A stretch of DNA of 64,000 nucleotides from a virus: positions 35,015-99,014 of the IMG/VR virus record IMGVR_UViG_3300027901_000002, one strand, 5' to 3'. Positions 2,144 to 14,280 of this stretch are shown here, in pieces. Position 1 is the first letter of the stretch; every line of letters begins with the position of its first letter. The notes beneath the pieces were generated by a model. That model was not told where the DNA came from. It did no database searches and was given only the letters and a program-made list of their open reading frames with translations. The position numbers and the translations under genes were made by a program.

Positions 2144-3214
2144 TTATAAAACCATATCACCAGTAAATCTTAATAAGGTCGCTTGTTTTTTTTCTTTCTG
2201 TTTCTTTTGCTCTTTTGTTTCCTTTGGTTTTGTTTTCTTTTTCTTCCCATGTAACCAATCCTCTTTCTCCTCTTTTGGTTTAAACTTAATAGGAGGAAAA
2301 TTCATTTTCGCCCTCTTATCGTGTTTTCCAAAATTAAGAAGAATCCCGTTAAGATATTTTTGTTTGTAGTCGTATTTGTATGTGTCTACAAAAGACAAAT
2401 TTTCGCTTGGTGAGACACTTGAATAAAATTTATGAAGGTTGTTTCCCAACCAATTTAAAATAAAGATGAAAGGATGTTCGCAATTCTCGAAATCTTTTTT
2501 CTCACATTTTCCAGTCAATATTTTGTAAGCAACTTGCTGAGAACTAAGCTTTTCTTCTTCTATTGGTTTAAAGGATTTAATCCCACTCAATATGTTTCTC
2601 AAAGTCACTCGCATGTCGGAGTCGTAAATATCCTCAATGTCTCCCTGCCAATCTGGATATTTTTTCTTAACGAATTGCTCTACGTCCTTTCGAGTAGGAG
2701 CTTGAAGTTTTAGCGGAGTCATTTGTTTTGCGACTGTTGCGTGAACCGTATCTTTTTTATTGACAATTACAATAAAAGGATTTTTGGATTCTTTTACGTA
2801 AAAATTAATGAGAGCATAAGCTCTCCAGTAAAAGGAGTCTCCCTCTACTACGAAGATAGTGTTCCTCGTTTGTAGAGGGAGTTGTGCAAAATCCTTCAGT
2901 AAATCCTCGGTGTTTCTAGGATAAGAGTATTTTATCTGCCACCCAATTTCGCTGGCAATAAGTCTTGGGAGTGAGGATTTTCCAACGCCATGTTCGCCAA
3001 ACAAAAGGATTTTTTCGTTATTAAGGATAAGCTTTCGCAATTGATTTCTTTGTTTTTCGTTTCCCGCGATTAAAAAACTCGCCAAAATTTTTTTGCCTGT
3101 GTAATTTTCGTAAGCTGTTGTGCATTCTTCAACAGTTGAATTACACAGGCAAGCGATTTCAGGTAATGTAAACCTATTCTGATATACTAATTTTTTTACG
3201 CGTTTTCCTAACAT
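2144..3214 (-). CDS. AAA+ ATPase resembling clamp-loader large subunit
   Basis: A 356-residue P-loop ATPase. Walker A is GEHGVGKS (residues 73-80) and Walker B is FVVEGD (121-126), with a sensor-like IVIVNKKD (about 140-147). The domain order and length suit the ATPase core plus lid of archaeal RFC large subunits. Residues 15-38 look like a helix-turn-helix. A lysine-rich linker leads to QATLLRFT at the C-terminus, which fits a PIP box (QxxLxxF), so it may bind a PCNA-like clamp. I start it at ATG 3214: the longer frame begins with a GTG inside a structured RNA that ends 7 nt upstream. RFC assignment is inferred and the small subunit is not in the window. Confidence 0.7.
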   Translation of the reverse strand: MLGKRVKKLVYQNRFTLPEIACLCNSTVEECTTAYENYTGKKILASFLIAGNEKQRNQLRKLILNNEKILLFGEHGVGKSSLPRLIASEIGWQIKYSYPRNTEDLLKDFAQLPLQTRNTIFVVEGDSFYWRAYALINFYVKESKNPFIVIVNKKDTVHATVAKQMTPLKLQAPTRKDVEQFVKKKYPDWQGDIEDIYDSDMRVTLRNILSGIKSFKPIEEEKLSSQQVAYKILTGKCEKKDFENCEHPFIFILNWLGNNLHKFYSSVSPSENLSFVDTYKYDYKQKYLNGILLNFGKHDKRAKMNFPPIKFKPKEEKEDWLHGKKKKTKPKETKEQKKQKEKKQATLLRFTGDMVL

Positions 3215-3221
3215 AAATTTA

Positions 3222-3352
3222 AGTAAGGAAGGTCGGATTTGCACCGACGCTTTCTTAGGTGATGGTCTCAGTAAAGAAAGTCTAAAATAGATAAGCGGAC
3301 GTCCTTACCATCATTACCGTCAGTAGGCTTTACGCTATCTATTTTCTTCCTT
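3222..3352 (-). ncRNA. tRNA-like four-helix structured RNA (leader or stable RNA)
   Basis: On the minus strand the ends form a perfect 7-bp acceptor-like stem (AAGGAAG/CTTCCTT) followed by an A in the discriminator position. Just inside the 3' end is a perfect 5-bp T-arm-like hairpin (GTCGG, loop TGCAAAT, CCGAC). In place of D and anticodon arms there is a 10-bp stem (AAAATAGATA/TATCTATTTT) with a large apical region and a 7-bp stem (CTTTCTT/AAGAAAG). Their loops contain TGATGGT and ACCATCA, which are complementary and could kiss. A TATA-like TTTATAAATG lies near 3400-3409. The RNA ends 7 nt before the AAA+ gene. It is not a normal tRNA. Confidence 0.65.
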
Positions 3353-3815: not shown

Positions 3816-3978
3816 TTTTTTCGACCTTAAAAGTAGTTTCGTTATCGATTCTTTCTGGATCTTGATTCCAAATCCTTTTAGTTGCTTTTCTAATCGCTTC
3901 GCACTCGTCTTCCGCTTCTACTTCTACTCTGTAAATATCTATCAAAAATTCTTTTACTTCTACTTTATATTTAACCAC
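3802..3978 (-). CDS. Small acidic hypothetical protein (58 aa)
   Basis: The frame starts at GTG 3978, overlapping the stop of the DUF4241-like gene. The product alternates V/E/K strands and then a helix containing DECEAIRKATKRIW, an arrangement seen in small beta-alpha phage proteins. Function unknown. Confidence 0.5.
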   Translation of the reverse strand: MVKYKVEVKEFLIDIYRVEVEAEDECEAIRKATKRIWNQDPERIDNETTFKVEKIEPT

Positions 3979-4414
3979 TCATATCCACTCTTATTTCCAT
4001 TATTATACCATCTTCGATTTTTGCGTAAACTGGATACAATCCATCTCCAAATCCAGAATCAAAAGATACAGCTAAACCATCGTGTCCAAGGTGGAAAGGT
4101 ATTTGTTTGTAACTTTTTCCTTTTTTGTGAGAGACGTAATTGTAAGAAAATTCAAATTCTGGTTCGTAATGTATTCGAATCCATTGTTTAAGATCGTGTA
4201 TTAAGTTATTAGGTGTTAATCCTAGTTCTTTTATTTCTTGTTCGTAGCTATCAAAATCTTTACCATATTTGTATATTTTACCGCTTTCTTTGTCTCGATA
4301 TTCTCTTATATCTTCGTATTCGCCTTTTTTCCACCATTTAAGATAAGAAGGATCGCATATTATTAACTGTCCAGAATCTACTCCAACTACGCCAATTTTT
4401 TTCCATTCTGTCAT
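3971..4414 (-). CDS. DUF4241-like protein
   Basis: A 147-residue protein with VGVDSGQLIICDPSYL near the N-terminus and LAVSFDSGFGDGLYPVYA near the C-terminus. This pair of Gly/Asp-rich motifs is characteristic of DUF4241-type phage and bacterial proteins, whose function is not established. Its ATG begins 2 nt after the 3' strand of structured RNA element A, so its translation may depend on that structure. Confidence 0.65.
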   Translation of the reverse strand: MTEWKKIGVVGVDSGQLIICDPSYLKWWKKGEYEDIREYRDKESGKIYKYGKDFDSYEQEIKELGLTPNNLIHDLKQWIRIHYEPEFEFSYNYVSHKKGKSYKQIPFHLGHDGLAVSFDSGFGDGLYPVYAKIEDGIIMEIRVDMSG

Positions 4415-4416
4415 TT

Positions 4417-4558
4417 CGAGTCGGTAGAGTTCGTCAACTCAGTGTTTCACATGCATGTTACGCACACCCCTGATAGCTCCTTGCTGTTGATTGAGGTAAG
4501 TGCAATGAGCACGTCTCTCGCTCCTTAGGAGTCCGTCTTAGGAGGCACCGATTTCTCG
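4417..4558 (-). ncRNA. Structured RNA family, copy A
   Basis: On the minus strand the element opens with CGAG-AAA-TCGGT and closes with ACCGA-CTCG, giving a two-part stem (4555-4558 with 4417-4420; 4547-4551 with 4421-4425) with an AAA bulge. Inside are GTGC/GCAC and GAGTT/AACTC hairpins and a GACGG core motif. It begins inside the 3' end of the gene at 4525-4965 and ends 2 nt before the ATG of the DUF4241-like gene. GC content is visibly higher than in flanking genes. Copies B and C share the same ends. Confidence 0.65.
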
Positions 4559-4965
4559 TCTAACTCTTTTAACCATCTATTTATAAAACCATTTATTTCG
4601 TGAGTTGGAACGTTATATCCGCTTGGACTACCTTCAGACCATTTGTTTAAAATTCTTTGCGTTTCTAACAAAACTAGTTCTGCCATAGTTTTTCTTTCTT
4701 TCAGAAGGTGTTGTTTTCTACTTAATTCCGCTTTTTCGTACATTCCATCTCTATAAAGCATTCTTGCAAACTTCATTTTTTGACGCAATTCAAAAATACC
4801 TAAATAATGACGATTAAACATTTCCACCAAAAACCTAGAATTTCGTCCTCTTTTTTCGAGCATTTTAATTGCTTTGTAAGTTCGCAAAAAATTACCAATA
4901 CTTAGTTTAATTGGATTAGTACTTATATTACTACAAATTGATTCTATTTTTTCTCTTTTTGACAT
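4525..4965 (-). CDS. Hypothetical helical protein (146 aa)
   Basis: A basic, almost wholly helical protein without cysteine pairs or known motifs. Its stop overlaps the 5' part of RNA element A, so its last codons (DEKSVPPKTDS) are constrained by the RNA. The start abuts the stop of the Cys-rich gene before it. Confidence 0.65.
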   Translation of the reverse strand: MSKREKIESICSNISTNPIKLSIGNFLRTYKAIKMLEKRGRNSRFLVEMFNRHYLGIFELRQKMKFARMLYRDGMYEKAELSRKQHLLKERKTMAELVLLETQRILNKWSEGSPSGYNVPTHEINGFINRWLKELDEKSVPPKTDS

Positions 4966-5180
4966 TATTTTTCGTCTAATTTAGATATTGGACAATTTTC
5001 CCAATCTTGTGAATTGTAACAACCGCTAGTACATCCTCCTCCTTTGCCACATATTTCTCCACCACCTCTTAAATCTACAAGATATGGACATGTTGTTTTA
5101 CAAATCCACGTAACATGGTTCCAAGGGCAGTTGTTTATGTATTCACAACCTATACAATAATCTACGCTATAACTTGGCAT
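4965..5180 (-). CDS. Cysteine-rich small protein (71 aa)
   Basis: From ATG 5180 the product has twelve cysteines (YCIGC, NC, ICKTTC, IC, GCTSGC, NC), so it probably binds several zinc ions or an Fe-S cluster, or forms disulfides. A longer start at 5198 would run into RNA element B, whose 3' stem ends only 4 nt before ATG 5180; I therefore prefer 5180. Function unknown. Confidence 0.6.
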   Translation of the reverse strand: MPSYSVDYCIGCEYINNCPWNHVTWICKTTCPYLVDLRGGGEICGKGGGCTSGCYNSQDWENCPISKLDEK

Positions 5181-5184
5181 ATAT

Positions 5185-5333
5185 CGAGTCGGCCTCAATT
5201 GAGATTTTTGCTCTGGCTTGGGAAATTTGCATGCTTTCCAAAATAGTTAAAAGCTATAAAGTTTATAATCCAATGGGATCTCTAGTCCCTGTCTACCCCC
5301 CAAGAGGCCGTCGCAGAGCTTACCGATTTCTCG
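5185..5333 (-). ncRNA. Structured RNA family, copy B
   Basis: The same terminal design as copy A: minus-strand CGAG-AAA-TCGGT pairs with GCCGA-CTCG (5330-5333 with 5185-5188; 5322-5326 with 5189-5193, including one T-G wobble). An inner GCTCTG/CAGAGC stem, a CTCAATTGAG hairpin and a GACGG motif are visible. It ends 4 nt before the ATG of the Cys-rich gene. All reading frames are broken by stops, so it is noncoding. Confidence 0.65.
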
Positions 5334-5419
5334 TTCGGCGGGATGTAGTGACAATACGCACCGTCCCTATGTGACCTTCCTTATTACTCTTACGAGCTAT
5401 GCCCTATACCGATTTCGAG
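5330..5419 (-). ncRNA. Possible fourth, shorter RNA element between B and C
   Basis: Minus-strand CTCG-AAA-TCGGT (5419-5408) can pair with GCCGA-A-CGAG (5339-5330). These arms are shared with the 3' end of copy C and the 5' end of copy B, so this fold excludes the closing stems of its neighbours. It contains GGGACGG, matching the GACGG motif of the other copies. It may be an alternative conformation rather than a separate element. Confidence 0.4.
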
Positions 5420-5551
5420 TCAGCTGGAGCTCCCAAAGAACTTTCGGTTAGAGACGATATACGCTTCAACCTCCCCTGCATCCACTCGTGTAGAGTCTTT
5501 CTCTCTACTCAGGATCTACGGCTGTCCCGCTTCGTTCACGCTGATTTCTCG
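5416..5551 (-). ncRNA. Structured RNA family, copy C
   Basis: Minus-strand CGAG-AAA-TCAGC pairs with GCTGA-CTCG (5548-5551 with 5416-5419; 5540-5544 with 5420-5424). Relative to copy A, two pairs changed on both strands (G-C to A-T, T-A to C-G), which is compensatory covariation. An inner GTAGAG/CTCTAC hairpin and a GACAG motif are seen. Its 5' end overlaps the last codons of the RHH gene in a different reading frame from the overlap in copy A. Confidence 0.65.
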
Positions 5552-5863
5552 TATTCTTTCTTGTCTTCTTTTCTTAATTTCTTCTAACTCACTTTTCGGA
5601 ACTGGTTTTAACTTTACGCCTTCCGCAAAAACCAATTTTAATTCTTTTACCAATTCTTGCTTTACGCCGCTAATTTTAGGAGCAAATTTTGGAGGTTTCG
5701 GAGGAGGGTTCCAAGTAGGACGAGAAATAAATCTTTTCGTCCCAACGAACCTAAGAAAACTACTTCTATTTCTCCCTTCCAATTCTGCGTTTTCGTCTAT
5801 TTTCTTTAGCTCCTCTTCATTAACCCAAAAACTAATTTTTATTGCTCTTTTTCGATGCGACAT
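5516..5863 (-). CDS. Ribbon-helix-helix DNA-binding protein
   Basis: Residues 6-50 (KISFWVNEEELKKIDENA..GRNRSSFLRFVG) fit the RHH fold: a basic beta strand followed by two helices with the N-R-S-S-F turn. A proline-rich linker and a charged helical tail follow, somewhat like MobC or relaxosome-type RHH proteins. It probably binds DNA as a dimer and regulates transcription. The last codons lie inside RNA element C. Confidence 0.65.
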   Translation of the reverse strand: MSHRKRAIKISFWVNEEELKKIDENAELEGRNRSSFLRFVGTKRFISRPTWNPPPKPPKFAPKISGVKQELVKELKLVFAEGVKLKPVPKSELEEIKKRRQERIREISVNEAGQP

Positions 5864-7650: not shown

Positions 7651-8166
7651 TTATAACACCATATCGCTCGTTATGTTAATTTTTATGAATACTTCGTCGA
7701 AACTCAAATTTTTAGGCTCGTTTATTTCGGCACCTAAAATTTTTTTCGCGTCTTCCTTTTCCTCTTCGTCTAACTCGTAAAGTTGTTGATACACGTAAGA
7801 ATAAGTATCGTCTAATTTGAATTCCAAATAACATTGACCACTTGGTATAGCAATCGCCCTTACTTCAAAAGGTTGATTGCCGTAATAAGCTTCGATAAAT
7901 TTTTTTGTTTCGTAATAAAAAAATCTTATTCCTTTCTCTAAGAATATCACTACGTCGTCTTTTTGTTTATAATCAAAGTTAAAATTAACGAGTTTAAAAT
8001 TTCTTTTAATTATTATACCGTCTGGCGTTTTTGTTCTATCAACAATGTGATCTATTCCACAAAACCAAACTATGTAGTGATTTTTTTCCAGTAAATCTTC
8101 TTTTAAATCTTCTTCTTTGTATCCCCAATAATTCACGAGGACTTTCTTTACGCTTTCAGGGATCAT
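7651..8166 (-). CDS. Hypothetical protein (171 aa) ending in DMVL
   Basis: From ATG 8166 the protein is mixed alpha/beta with an acidic helix near residue 140. The C-terminal residues (ITSDMVL) match the end of the AAA+ protein at 2144 (FTGDMVL), possibly a shared short interaction motif. Function unknown. Confidence 0.6.
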   Translation of the reverse strand: MIPESVKKVLVNYWGYKEEDLKEDLLEKNHYIVWFCGIDHIVDRTKTPDGIIIKRNFKLVNFNFDYKQKDDVVIFLEKGIRFFYYETKKFIEAYYGNQPFEVRAIAIPSGQCYLEFKLDDTYSYVYQQLYELDEEEKEDAKKILGAEINEPKNLSFDEVFIKINITSDMVL

Positions 8167-8320
8167 CGTCTTCAGTTTTAACCAAACCAAATATATCGTA
8201 TATCAATTCGTCTTCAGAATAGTAAGCGTCGCAAGAAGGACACCAAAAATCCATGTCGTCAGTTAAAAGTAATTCACTACCACATGCTAAATGAATAACA
8301 TTGAACAATTTAGGTTTCAT
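8156..8320 (-). CDS. Zinc-ribbon-like microprotein (54 aa)
   Basis: HLACG and FWCPSCDAYY make a split zinc-ribbon, followed by an acidic helix. It starts inside the 3' end of the TFB gene and overlaps the next start by 11 bp, so it is translationally coupled in the operon. Confidence 0.55.
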   Translation of the reverse strand: MKPKLFNVIHLACGSELLLTDDMDFWCPSCDAYYSEDELIYDIFGLVKTEDDDP

Positions 8321-9371
8321 AAAATTCTGCCTTTAAGTTATTTTTTGTTTTTTTTAATTTCATTTCGTATTTTGGATTTATTAACCCTTTTAACAACAAG
8401 CCATCAATATCGTAAATTTTACACGCGTTTTCTATTATTGACGAATATTCGCATTCTTTTAAAGCTTCTTCGAAGATATTGTCTTTAAAACCAAAATAAG
8501 AAAAAATTGTTTTTAAAATTTCTTTTGTTTCGTATATCCTTTTTCTAAGAGTTCGAACGTCGCAACCAACAATTTCACATAAATCCTTTTGCGTTACGCC
8601 GAAATTTTCGCTAGTTAAAATATAAATACAAGCGGCGGCTTTAACAATTGGATTTCTAAATAAAGTAGAGGAACCTATTGCTTCCTCTATTTTTAAAATA
8701 TTTTTTATGAAATTTTTGCTTGCACAACAGACTAAAAACTCTTCTCTTGGAGATAAGCATATTCCGCTCACTATTTTAGTGACAAAAGTTTCTGGTTGTT
8801 GTTGTTCTACTTTTAAGTTTAAAATCGTAATTAATCTCGAATAAAATTGTTTTATTTTCTTTACATCGCATTCTATTTTCTCAAAATCGAATAAAGTGTA
8901 AGGAAGTTTTTGTTTTTTTATTTCTAAATACGCTATTCCTTGCGCTACAATTTCAAGTGAAACCTTACCTCCACCTCTAAAAATGTTGGTTGAGGAAATT
9001 TCATTTAATTTACATATTTTAATGAAGTTATAAAACGCCGAAGCGTAAAAATCTTTACTTAAACCAAGAAGTTCAATTATCCTCTTAAGTTCTTTTTTGA
9101 TTACAGATTCCCTTTTATCCTTCCAATCGTAATAGTATTTTTTTAAAGCTCTTTTTAAATTAGGATTTTTGCATTGTTTAATGTTTATTTTCGTTCTCTT
9201 GTTTATACCTTTTAAAAATGTAGACCTATTTCTTTCTTTTTCTATTGCCGAGTTGTCTTCTAATTGTTGAGGAGGAGTGTAATCAATCGGTTTATCTTCA
9301 AAAACCAAGCCACAGTTAGTACAAACATCTATTCTGTAAGATTTTTCTCCACATTCTGGACACCACGTCAT
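8310..9371 (-). CDS. tfb: Transcription initiation factor IIB (TFB) homologue
   Basis: The 353-residue product has the archaeal TFB/TFIIB architecture. A zinc ribbon (CPEC..CTNCGLVFED, cysteines 4, 7, 17, 20) is followed by a basic reader-like linker and two cyclin repeats. In the first, GGGKVSLEIVAQGIAYLEI lines up with the RGRS..AAALY helix of TFB. In the second, NPIVKAAACIYI and GVTQKDLCEIVGCDVRTLRKR match the NP..AAA and TQ..I...V..TIR elements that contact DNA. TFB joins TBP and RNA polymerase at archaeal promoters, so the virus probably reprograms transcription. ATG 9371 overlaps the previous stop (ATGA). Divergence is high but no core element is missing. Confidence 0.85.
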   Translation of the reverse strand: MTWCPECGEKSYRIDVCTNCGLVFEDKPIDYTPPQQLEDNSAIEKERNRSTFLKGINKRTKINIKQCKNPNLKRALKKYYYDWKDKRESVIKKELKRIIELLGLSKDFYASAFYNFIKICKLNEISSTNIFRGGGKVSLEIVAQGIAYLEIKKQKLPYTLFDFEKIECDVKKIKQFYSRLITILNLKVEQQQPETFVTKIVSGICLSPREEFLVCCASKNFIKNILKIEEAIGSSTLFRNPIVKAAACIYILTSENFGVTQKDLCEIVGCDVRTLRKRIYETKEILKTIFSYFGFKDNIFEEALKECEYSSIIENACKIYDIDGLLLKGLINPKYEMKLKKTKNNLKAEFYET

Positions 9372-9466
9372 AATCCACACAATTTACCATAAATTATTGC
9401 ACAAATAGAAGTCACAATTAAAAAAAGGACGAAGACGTAAAGAGCCTCTTTCTGGTCTTCGTTCAT
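9368..9466 (-). CDS. Single-span membrane peptide (32 aa)
   Basis: MNEDQKEALY precedes one hydrophobic helix. Both ends overlap neighbours by ATGA (RNase H upstream, TFB downstream), which strongly suggests a real coupled gene despite its size. Function unknown. Confidence 0.55.
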   Translation of the reverse strand: MNEDQKEALYVFVLFLIVTSICAIIYGKLCGL

Positions 9467-11712: not shown

Positions 11713-12116
11713 TTCAAAGTTTTTCTCTTAAAAATAAAGTGTAAACCGTAAAGAAGTGAAACTAGGATTGTATTGATAGTCAACAAAACAAAAAAAGGAA
11801 ACAAAAAAATAATGCTTTCTGAAATCCCACCAATTCCAACCAAAATTATGTCGCTAAGCGAATTTTCTACTGAATCTTTTCGTTTTTCAAATTTTATTTG
11901 TTTAAAAAGAGTGTTTTCAAACATTTCAAATATAATTCCAGTAAATAAACAACACACAACTCCATAAGAGAGGGCGTATTCTATTTGAAACCCACACATC
12001 ATAATAACGACGTAAGATATAAAAAACGCAAGCATCCCCATAATTAAATGGTCAAAACTATAAAAATCAAGCCATGCTCTTCCCACTTGCGTTCTATTTC
12101 TTGCTATTAGTTTCAT
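11709..12116 (-). CDS. DUF2585-like integral membrane protein
   Basis: Four hydrophobic segments are visible. The motifs WLDFYSFDHLIMGM, FEMFENTLF and RKDSVENSLSDI correspond in order to the W(Y)..SH..HG, E..WE..EN and GDS..NS.SD signatures of DUF2585 membrane proteins. The function of that family is not known. The start overlaps the gene before it by 23 bp. Confidence 0.6.
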   Translation of the reverse strand: MKLIARNRTQVGRAWLDFYSFDHLIMGMLAFFISYVVIMMCGFQIEYALSYGVVCCLFTGIIFEMFENTLFKQIKFEKRKDSVENSLSDIILVGIGGISESIIFLFPFFVLLTINTILVSLLYGLHFIFKRKTLK

Positions 12117-12219
12117 TATTGATCGAAAAGTATTGCTCGGTATCCTCTTGCGGACAGTAATACCAACCTTCTTTGTCGCCTTGTATTGCGCAACCGCAAG
12201 ATTGACATATTATTTCCAT
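12094..12219 (-). CDS. Zinc-binding microprotein (41 aa)
   Basis: From ATG 12219 the product reads ICQSCGCAI..WYYC, a minimal zinc site, then an acidic/polar tail. A longer frame to 12282 would add a basic hydrophobic leader right next to the palindrome, which I consider less likely. Function unknown. Confidence 0.45.
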   Translation of the reverse strand: MEIICQSCGCAIQGDKEGWYYCPQEDTEQYFSINNETNSKK

Positions 12220-12285
12220 TCTAACCAATATTTTAAAACTTTTTAAAATATCTTTTATGATTTTTAAAAATATAAAATACATTTC

Positions 12286-13325: not shown

Positions 13326-13431
13326 TTGTATCGCTTGTCGTCTTTTCTTACAATAAACGGAAAATAAGGTATTTCCTTAAAAAGGTTTGGAAACTGTAGT
13401 TTCCACTTCGAAGCTCTATACTTTCTCGTTC
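13326..13431 (-). terminator. Intergenic hairpins
   Basis: The gap contains TGGAAACTGTAGTTTCCA (13392-13409), a perfect 7-bp hairpin, and AAGG..CCTT just before it. It separates the membrane gene from the zinc-ribbon operon and may be a terminator or processing site. Confidence 0.35.
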
Positions 13432-13710
13432 TTACTCGTTTTCGTCTGAGGGCCTTTTCGCTCCGTAGTCTGGAATATTTGTGTTTTTTCTTTCGTCCCA
13501 TTTTATAACTACCTCTTTTTTTCTACCGCTACAACAACAAATTAGAATCATTATTATTATAATTCCAATAAATGTTGCGTTGGTTCCGAATTCTATTTCT
13601 GTAAATATTAAAAACCAAACTAACGCTTCTATTAGAACAAATACTAAGAAAAATATTCCGACCAAAATTGCGATAACAATTACAAATGCAATAAAATCGT
13701 GTTTGTTCAT
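13432..13710 (-). CDS. Two-span membrane protein (92 aa)
   Basis: Two long hydrophobic segments (about residues 6-38 and 46-62) end in ICCCSGRKK, then a charged cytoplasmic tail. ATG 13710 follows the previous stop with a 1-nt gap. Function unknown. Confidence 0.6.
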   Translation of the reverse strand: MNKHDFIAFVIVIAILVGIFFLVFVLIEALVWFLIFTEIEFGTNATFIGIIIIMILICCCSGRKKEVVIKWDERKNTNIPDYGAKRPSDENE

Positions 13711-13711
13711 A

Positions 13712-13843
13712 TTAGTCAATATATCCGCTAATAAATTTTGCCATAGCTATTCGGTGTTCTTCTTCTTCTTTTTCCTTTTTTAGTTTTGCTATTAATAAAT
13801 CAAGCATTTCGTCCAATTTATCTAAACTATCTTTCAAACTCAT
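13712..13843 (-). CDS. Small coiled-coil protein (43 aa)
   Basis: MSLKDSLDKLDEMLDLLIAKLKKE has heptad-spaced leucines, followed by an acidic run. The ATG overlaps the DUF6899-like gene's stop (ATGA). Confidence 0.5.
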   Translation of the reverse strand: MSLKDSLDKLDEMLDLLIAKLKKEKEEEEHRIAMAKFISGYID

Positions 13844-14115
13844 ACATTAAACACGTCTCCGTTTTCTTCTTTCTTTTTGTCTTCGTAATGGGAAATTAGT
13901 CTGCGGTATATTTCTTGTTTTGCCGATTCTAAAATTCCCATAATAGTGTTGTAATCGTTATATCGTGTTGGATCTATTACTTCTGTTAACAACTTACATA
14001 TACAGTAGTTTAGTGCTCCAGTAATTTCTTCCTGTGGAAGTTTACACAAATCAAATATTAAATAATCTAAACAATAAGCCAATATTTTTCTATTTTCTTT
14101 TTTTATGTACGGCAA
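13840..14115 (-). CDS. DUF6899-like phage protein
   Basis: The 91-residue product has the family pattern: MPYIKKENRK at the start, GALNYCICKLL in the middle and EIYRRLISHYEDKK near the end (compare the EFYRRV..YEDxK ending). These small proteins are widespread in tailed phages and their function is unknown. The start is TTG directly after the preceding stop (TAATTG). Confidence 0.7.
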   Translation of the reverse strand: MPYIKKENRKILAYCLDYLIFDLCKLPQEEITGALNYCICKLLTEVIDPTRYNDYNTIMGILESAKQEIYRRLISHYEDKKKEENGDVFNV

Positions 14116-14280
14116 TTATTTTTTCAACTCTTTTCCAGTTTGTGAATCAAATTTTATAGCGTTTTTATGACATTCTGCGTGGCAGGCGTACCATCTATCC
14201 ATCAACCCTACCAGAAGTCTAGCCAACGAACCGTATCCAGTATTCCCTCCAAAAAACGATGTCCATTTAATTTTTTTCAT
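14116..14280 (-). CDS. Small hypothetical protein (54 aa)
   Basis: MKKIKWTSFFGGNTGYGSLARLLVGLMDRW is followed by CHAECHKNAI, a possible metal site. The ATG overlaps the stop of the previous gene (ATGA), supporting coding. Confidence 0.5.
   Translation of the reverse strand: MKKIKWTSFFGGNTGYGSLARLLVGLMDRWYACHAECHKNAIKFDSQTGKELKK

Follow-up and report, generated by a model that had tools for sequence, protein, structure and literature searches.

Three copies of a repeated element (A, B and C) and an imperfect fourth (D), all on the minus strand of a viral genome, are probably archaeal bulge-helix-bulge (BHB) introns situated in polycistronic mRNAs of a tailed archaeal virus, judging by their sequence. 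An intron or a BHB-excised RNA is a better reading of them than an unknown cis-regulatory or small-RNA class. The window, i.e. the whole stretch of DNA that was analysed (64,000 nt), comprises bases 35015-99014 of a 99-kb virus record (IMGVR_UViG_3300027901_000002, here called G000). The features concerned are, in window coordinates:

3971-4414, minus strand: gene downstream of intron A, DUF4241 (Pfam)
4415-4552, minus strand: predicted BHB intron A, 138 nt, between ORFs 4553-4965 and 3971-4414 (BHB closing stem, splice model)
4417-4425, minus strand: inner-helix 3' strand ACCGA and central-helix CTCG of A (sequence, fold)
4553-4558, minus strand: 5' exon end of A, CGAGAA, i.e. the central-helix CGAG and the first two bulge nucleotides (pairs with CTCG at 4417-4420)
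4553-4965, minus strand: gene upstream of intron A (ORF; without splicing it continues into KSVPPKTDS-stop)
4965-5180, minus strand: gene downstream of the C-D-B array, 71 aa, ending ...SKLDEK-stop (ORF)
5183-5327, minus strand: predicted BHB intron B, 145 nt, ending 2 nt before the ATG (5180) of ORF 4965-5180 (CGAG-AAA-TCGGT ... GCCGA-CTCG-ATA)
5328-5413, minus strand: predicted element D, 86 nt, directly between C and B, imperfect BHB (sequence, fold, boundaries)
5414-5545, minus strand: predicted BHB intron C, 132 nt, at the 3' end of the RHH-protein gene (5516-5863) (CGAG-AAA-TCAGC ... GCTGA-CTCG-AAA)
5546-5863, minus strand: ribbon-helix-helix (NikA-like) gene, 5' exon of the C-D-B array (Pfam, splice model)

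Based on its gene content, the virus appears to be an uncultured tailed virus of archaea. It encodes a TFIIB-like factor (TFB; window 8310-9380, Pfam), indicating that it lives with an archaeal-type transcription system, as well as an AAA clamp loader and a family B DNA polymerase. Its terminase has remote homologues in Halogranum tailed virus 1 and in Thermus phages. Elements A to C sit in a run of small accessory genes on the minus strand; measured downstream from the TFB gene, the elements of the window are 2.8-5 kb away. Spacings between genes are often -8 to +2 in this genome.

The family B DNA polymerase is split over two ORFs of G000 (L005 1424-2698 and L004 15828-17492) that lie approximately 930 nt apart; the second part corresponds to an 875-aa ORF (L035 1327-3954) in a related virus. 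An intron as the cause of this split was rejected, since the gap contains unrelated small ORFs. A C-terminal tag, (S/N/D/G)DM(E/I/V/Q)L-stop, was present in 21 of the 1486 ORFs of the virus group (approximately 0.4 expected from the internal rate). Its carriers are DNA polymerase B, a D12 methyltransferase, a likely C5 methylase and an ATPase, among others. Tagged ORFs were located at 2144-3244 and 7651-8190 in the window and at 11811-12278, 13411-14280 and 15828-17492 in L004, and the tag also occurs in L013, L019, L020, L021, L024 and L035. It may be a sliding-clamp-binding peptide.

The initial annotation had described three copies of an element (A at 4417-4558, B at 5185-5333, C at 5416-5551), and these were found again, with the same closing strands, when the sequence was re-read. 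Their consensus closing stem on the minus strand is CGAG-AAA-TC(G/A)G(T/C) ... (A/G)C(C/T)GA-CTCG. A search pattern derived from those same three copies had no match elsewhere in the window (0 expected from shuffles). The inner pairs differ between copies and still pair (TCGGT/ACCGA in A, TCGGT/GCCGA in B, TCAGC/GCTGA in C), A and C overlap the 3' ends of ORFs in different frames (4525-4965 and 5516-5863), and an ATG follows 2 nt after A and 4 nt after B, all as that annotation had it. The same holds for the G + C content, which is above that of the surroundings (A 0.51, B 0.44 and C 0.52, versus approximately 0.34 for the window); in a composition scan, A, B and C were the strongest non-coding GC outliers. 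The recurring core that had been noticed inside the elements takes the form G(A/C)(C/G)GG, 9 nt past the inner 5' strand, in all three copies.

No known riboswitch, tRNA, RNase P or intron core had been recognised in the elements, in agreement with our finding of no Rfam match at gathering score in the window; the best weak matches in the two regions with elements were far below the cut-off. Group I and group II introns were dismissed for lack of an Rfam match, and ARAGORN found no tRNA or tmRNA in the window or in L024, a sequence of a related virus that is treated below. No Rfam family, tRNA or ORF thus explains the elements. The 99-kb record as a whole contained no tRNA that we could find; among the relatives, tRNA genes were seen at L018 16551-16700 (G002; Ala-TGC and an unassigned one) and at L023 12700-12773 (G003; Ile-GAT). 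Whole elements did not fold more stably than shuffled sequences (z of -1.3, -0.6 and -0.04 for A, B and C), so the evidence lies in the closing stem.

The archaeal BHB motif consists of a 4-bp helix between two 3-nt bulges, which are the splice sites (PMC4090602). A 4-bp helix, an inner AAA bulge on the 5' side and three unpaired nucleotides outside the 3' strand give the closing stem this layout. In the EndA pathway, each bulge is cut after its second base. The 3-nt bulge after the 3' strand, which gives the closing stem its BHB geometry, had been overlooked in the initial annotation. Its proposal of a structured RNA in several copies, absent from Rfam and with covariation in the closing stem, is supported but incomplete: the stem fits a known motif, the archaeal BHB. 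The closing strands are as it described them, but the outer CGAG is probably exon, outside the element. An outer helix is only weakly present in A to C: it has 1 bp in A (4 bp if a 2-nt bulge is allowed) and 1 bp in B and C with the immediate flanks, or 3 bp when the two exons (1 and 2) of the C-D-B array pair with each other.

Element D, which fills the gap between C and B, had also been overlooked. It starts with ATCGGT and finishes with GCCGAACGAGAA. Its stem has a central CTCG/CGAG and an inner TCGGT/GCCGA with one extra A; there is an extra unpaired base opposite the 5' bulge and the first inner pair is irregular. The CTCG at the end of C precedes D, D closes in the CGAG that is the strand paired by B, and CTCGAA-ATCGGT is present in the DNA at the C/D boundary. 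These flanks and this end suggest that D is a fourth element, though an imperfect one, which shares the AA^A junction (^ marks the cut) and is stacked between C and B with no exon in between.

In the proposed mechanism, the last four exon bases, CGAG, and the CTCG close to the intron's 3' end would form the 4-bp central helix, flanked by bulges AAA (5' side) and AAA or ATA (3' side), with TCGGT/ACCGA as the inner helix. The tRNA-splicing endonuclease of the host would cut after the second base in each bulge (AA^A, AT^A); joining of the exons and circularisation of the intron would then fall to an RNA ligase (RtcB). The expected products are circular RNAs of approximately 86-145 nt and mRNAs in which compact gene boundaries are restored. 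C, D and B, lying head to tail at one exon junction, would be removed singly or as larger units, depending on the order. Any order of removal should clear the array, except one in which C and B are both individually removed first, as D would then be stranded between two non-complementary CGAG strands.

Excision of A changes the end of the upstream gene from ...LDEKSVPPKTDS-stop to ...KELDEK-stop, with the TGA overlapping the next ATG (AAATGACAG). The splice model reads GAC GAG AA^A TGA, with an ATGA overlap onto the next gene, and the predicted exon junction after removal is GACGAGAA/ATGACAG. The new end resembles the ...SKLDEK-stop of the neighbouring 71-aa gene (4965-5180), which stops just before its own downstream ATG, and it fits the compact gene spacing. 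Excision of C-D-B joins ATACGAGAA to ATATGCC and yields ...RIREICQVIA-stop, a few codons into the next gene. When the introns are left in, A and C alter the last residues only and F, an element of the related virus described below, is in frame. No ORF is destroyed, so splicing is not required for the proteins. Homologues of the four flanking genes, intron-free or otherwise, were absent from the collections and virus records searched; they were also lacking in the five full virus records of relatives that were compared, which thus offer no empty site.

Two further elements, E and F, were found in tandem in a related virus (G003) with a terminase that is 71% identical. The GC island that contains them (L024 14921-15121) had been flagged by the composition scan before structure was sought there. 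It lies in an accessory region 2.6-3.8 kb downstream of the TFB gene of G003, a comparable place. E reads TTAAT-GCTG-AAA-TCGGTTG ... CGACCGT-CAGC-AAA-ATTAA (intron of 87 nt) and F reads TAAAT-GTGG-AAA-TTGGTGG ... CCACCAA-CCAT-AAG-ATTAA (intron of 72 nt). Both are positioned between the stop of one small gene and the start of the next, or at that start. With F excised, the reading is open MWKIKMSEENKK...; MWKIKMSEENKKICEEC...; the frame is kept with or without F.

In E and F, the central helix is altered on both strands (GCTG/CAGC and GTGG/CCAT, with one G-U in F), as is expected if the exon pairs with the intron. The outer helix, which was not used in finding these elements, is complete in E (5 of 5 pairs, UUAAU/AUUAA), and F has 4 of 5 pairs. 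E has a U-U mismatch beside the 5' bulge, and its first inner pair is irregular. In all five elements (A, B, C, E and F) the 5' bulge is AAA and the geometry is N4 - AAA - T(C/T)(G/A)G(T/C) ... complement - N4' - 3 nt. At both sites of this virus, the 5' strand of the central helix reads CGAG, and the relative has GCTG and GTGG, hence three different sequences only; each has a matching 3' strand, as would be predicted if the 5' strand is exon.

A multiple alignment of whole elements misaligned the insides, which are poorly conserved between copies; for this reason, the stem strands of the five elements were counted, joined by an artificial TTTT linker, instead of building a covariance model. 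Standard pairs occupied 81% of cells (63% in shuffles) and 10 pairs were changed on both sides (5.2 in shuffles). The covariation score was 0.588, versus 0.243 (sd 0.060) in shuffles, and was reached by 0 of 500 of these; slid registers scored 0.127 at most. In the central helix, 100% of cells were paired and 3 of 4 pairs were changed on both sides, a covariation that rests on E and F, both inspected for pairing once composition had flagged them. All these counts come from a small set of five sequences. A, B and C have one central helix, and their covariation concerns inner pairs only.

The 5' signature N4-AAAT(C/T)(G/A)G(T/C) occurred at 204 sites in the viral sequences examined. Six of them had a strong 3' partner no more than 260 nt away, versus 1.4 expected when the downstream sequence was shuffled. 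These six were A, B, C, E, F and one site in a remote virus (L041); the latter was rejected as an intron, as it sits inside a 200-aa ORF. The other five all lie in GC islands at gene boundaries, in two related viruses. An unrestricted BHB scan gave equally many strong matches in real and in reversed sequence, showing that geometry alone proves little, and we claim no further introns from it. The case as read from sequence is built on repetition, place, composition and covariation, and not on geometry alone. Matches to the A/B/C pattern in L008 and L009 were discarded as chance; they represent the same stretch of two related GC-rich phages, inside an ORF. A DNA-level similarity search detected none of the elements in the relatives, and the other non-coding GC islands inspected did not contain such a motif (one in L018 contains tRNAs).

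The terminase relatives are viruses with 61-71% identity in that protein. The only cellular link of the virus group is a 14-kb contig (L034, DXJL01000117.1; terminase 68% identical) assigned to a Candidatus Heimdallarchaeota MAG; this may point to an Asgard host for the virus group, or else to misbinning of the contig. Among 227 genomes of the phylum of this MAG, no other genome contained the terminase and none contained the A/B/C pattern. Neither the tRNA-splicing endonuclease (EndA) nor RtcB was found in the virus records at family thresholds, so the host would supply both. The MAG with the related contig has two EndA-type domains and RtcB, and the archaeal control genomes could supply both enzymes as well. 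What the sequence shows is the geometry, the repetition and covariation of the elements, their placement at gene boundaries and the presence of similar elements in a related virus; cleavage, ligation, circular products and translation of the spliced exons are inferred.

Several other explanations were considered. The elements could be BHB-excised functional RNAs, i.e. structured, probably circular non-coding RNAs made for the virus, with incidental exon joining and a gene-boundary position that avoids harm. The chemistry is the same as for BHB introns, and several features fit: the G + C content of the elements is 0.44-0.55, versus 0.30-0.34, their insides are long rather than minimal, they occur at gene edges only, and no protein needs their splicing. 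Archaeal introns can indeed carry functional RNAs, as shown by the box C/D RNA hosted by the tRNA-Trp intron (PMC4090602). However, we consider this unlikely, given insides that are poorly conserved between copies, lack an Rfam match and have folding energies within those of shuffles, while the core recognised as common comprises G(A/C)(C/G)GG (A to C) and a short hairpin before the 3' inner strand. Somewhat less probable is a cis-acting structured leader or intercistronic RNA (riboswitch-like, or acting in translation control or mRNA processing) whose closing stem merely resembles a BHB. The stem would hold the start region in A and B, 2-4 nt from start codons, but the end of C is not at a start codon, there would be no role for the 3 nt that follow the 3' strand or for the outer helices on the exon side in E and F, and the stacking of C-D-B with common AA^A cut sites is hard to explain.

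Small non-autonomous DNA mobile elements (MITE/hairpin type) with imperfect terminal inverted repeats, inserted at ACGAGAAAT, would account for the occurrence of ACGAGAAAT at both insertion sites in different genes, for tandem insertion at one site and for complementary ends. This is nevertheless very improbable: target duplication is lacking, no transposase was recognised nearby, and the AAA asymmetry of the ends, for which a DNA inverted repeat has no need, is constant in all copies. In addition, E and F have other outer four bases, each set with its match on the opposite strand (in one case through a G-U pair), which points to pairing at the RNA level. Chance, in the form of local duplication or coincidence of short complementary strings, is scarcely credible. 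Single BHB geometries of equal score do occur at background rate, but 1.4 signature sites with partners were expected and six were found; five of these are the elements, every one in a GC island at a gene boundary in two related viruses, with covariation beyond that of shuffles and slides.

BHB introns in viral mRNAs are thus the reading that we prefer. An extension of it, possible but doubtful, is that the elements form a mobile family, either RNA-level parasites or viral circular-RNA genes. Its members might insert where the gene boundaries of archaeal tailed viruses offer a short site (CGAGAA^AT or equivalents), and might stack into one another. They would have no need of an ORF; the tRNA-splicing enzymes of the host would be wholly responsible for their release, and possibly also for reverse splicing into new sites. 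If true, the intron reading would provide the first sign, within the literature searched, of protein-spliced mRNA introns in archaeal viruses; in that literature, mRNA BHB introns are known from few cellular genes and no splicing has been demonstrated for an archaeal virus. It would also bear on the spread of BHB introns, a question usually studied in tRNA genes only, and it predicts viral circular RNAs that existing RNA-seq might show.

The 4-bp central helix, 3-nt bulges and inner helix, and the proposed exon-intron pairing, are as in the BHB introns of pre-tRNA and pre-rRNA, which are processed by EndA and RtcB (PMC4090602). In contrast to these, the virus elements are located in mRNAs, have no homing endonuclease ORF and have a weak outer helix in A to C. 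For archaeal-virus protein genes, 12-bp putative introns have been described, without demonstrated splicing according to the paper that cites them (Peng et al., cited in PMC2738675). In that account the 12-bp insertions keep the frame, whereas the virus elements are approximately 10 times longer, GC-rich and at gene junctions. Our literature search for BHB introns in viruses yielded nothing closer than these 12-bp putative introns. These insertions are reportedly those of variants of the rudivirus SIRV1. Among cellular mRNAs, the cbf5 pre-mRNA introns of Crenarchaeota are BHB-like, lie in a protein-coding transcript and are cut by EndA; they are 16-44 bp long and interrupt the codon of a catalytic residue (PMC2738675), whereas the virus elements are GC-rich, measure 72-145 nt and occur in multiple copies at the edges of genes. 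The 5' UTR of Haloferax volcanii HVO_1309 contains a BHB intron that was cut in vitro and for which a circular RNA was found (PMC7714728). Both this intron and the virus elements are in untranslated parts of mRNAs, but HVO_1309 is a single cellular case and the virus elements are a family with stacked copies. The virus family differs from the known systems in length, copy number, stacking and place.
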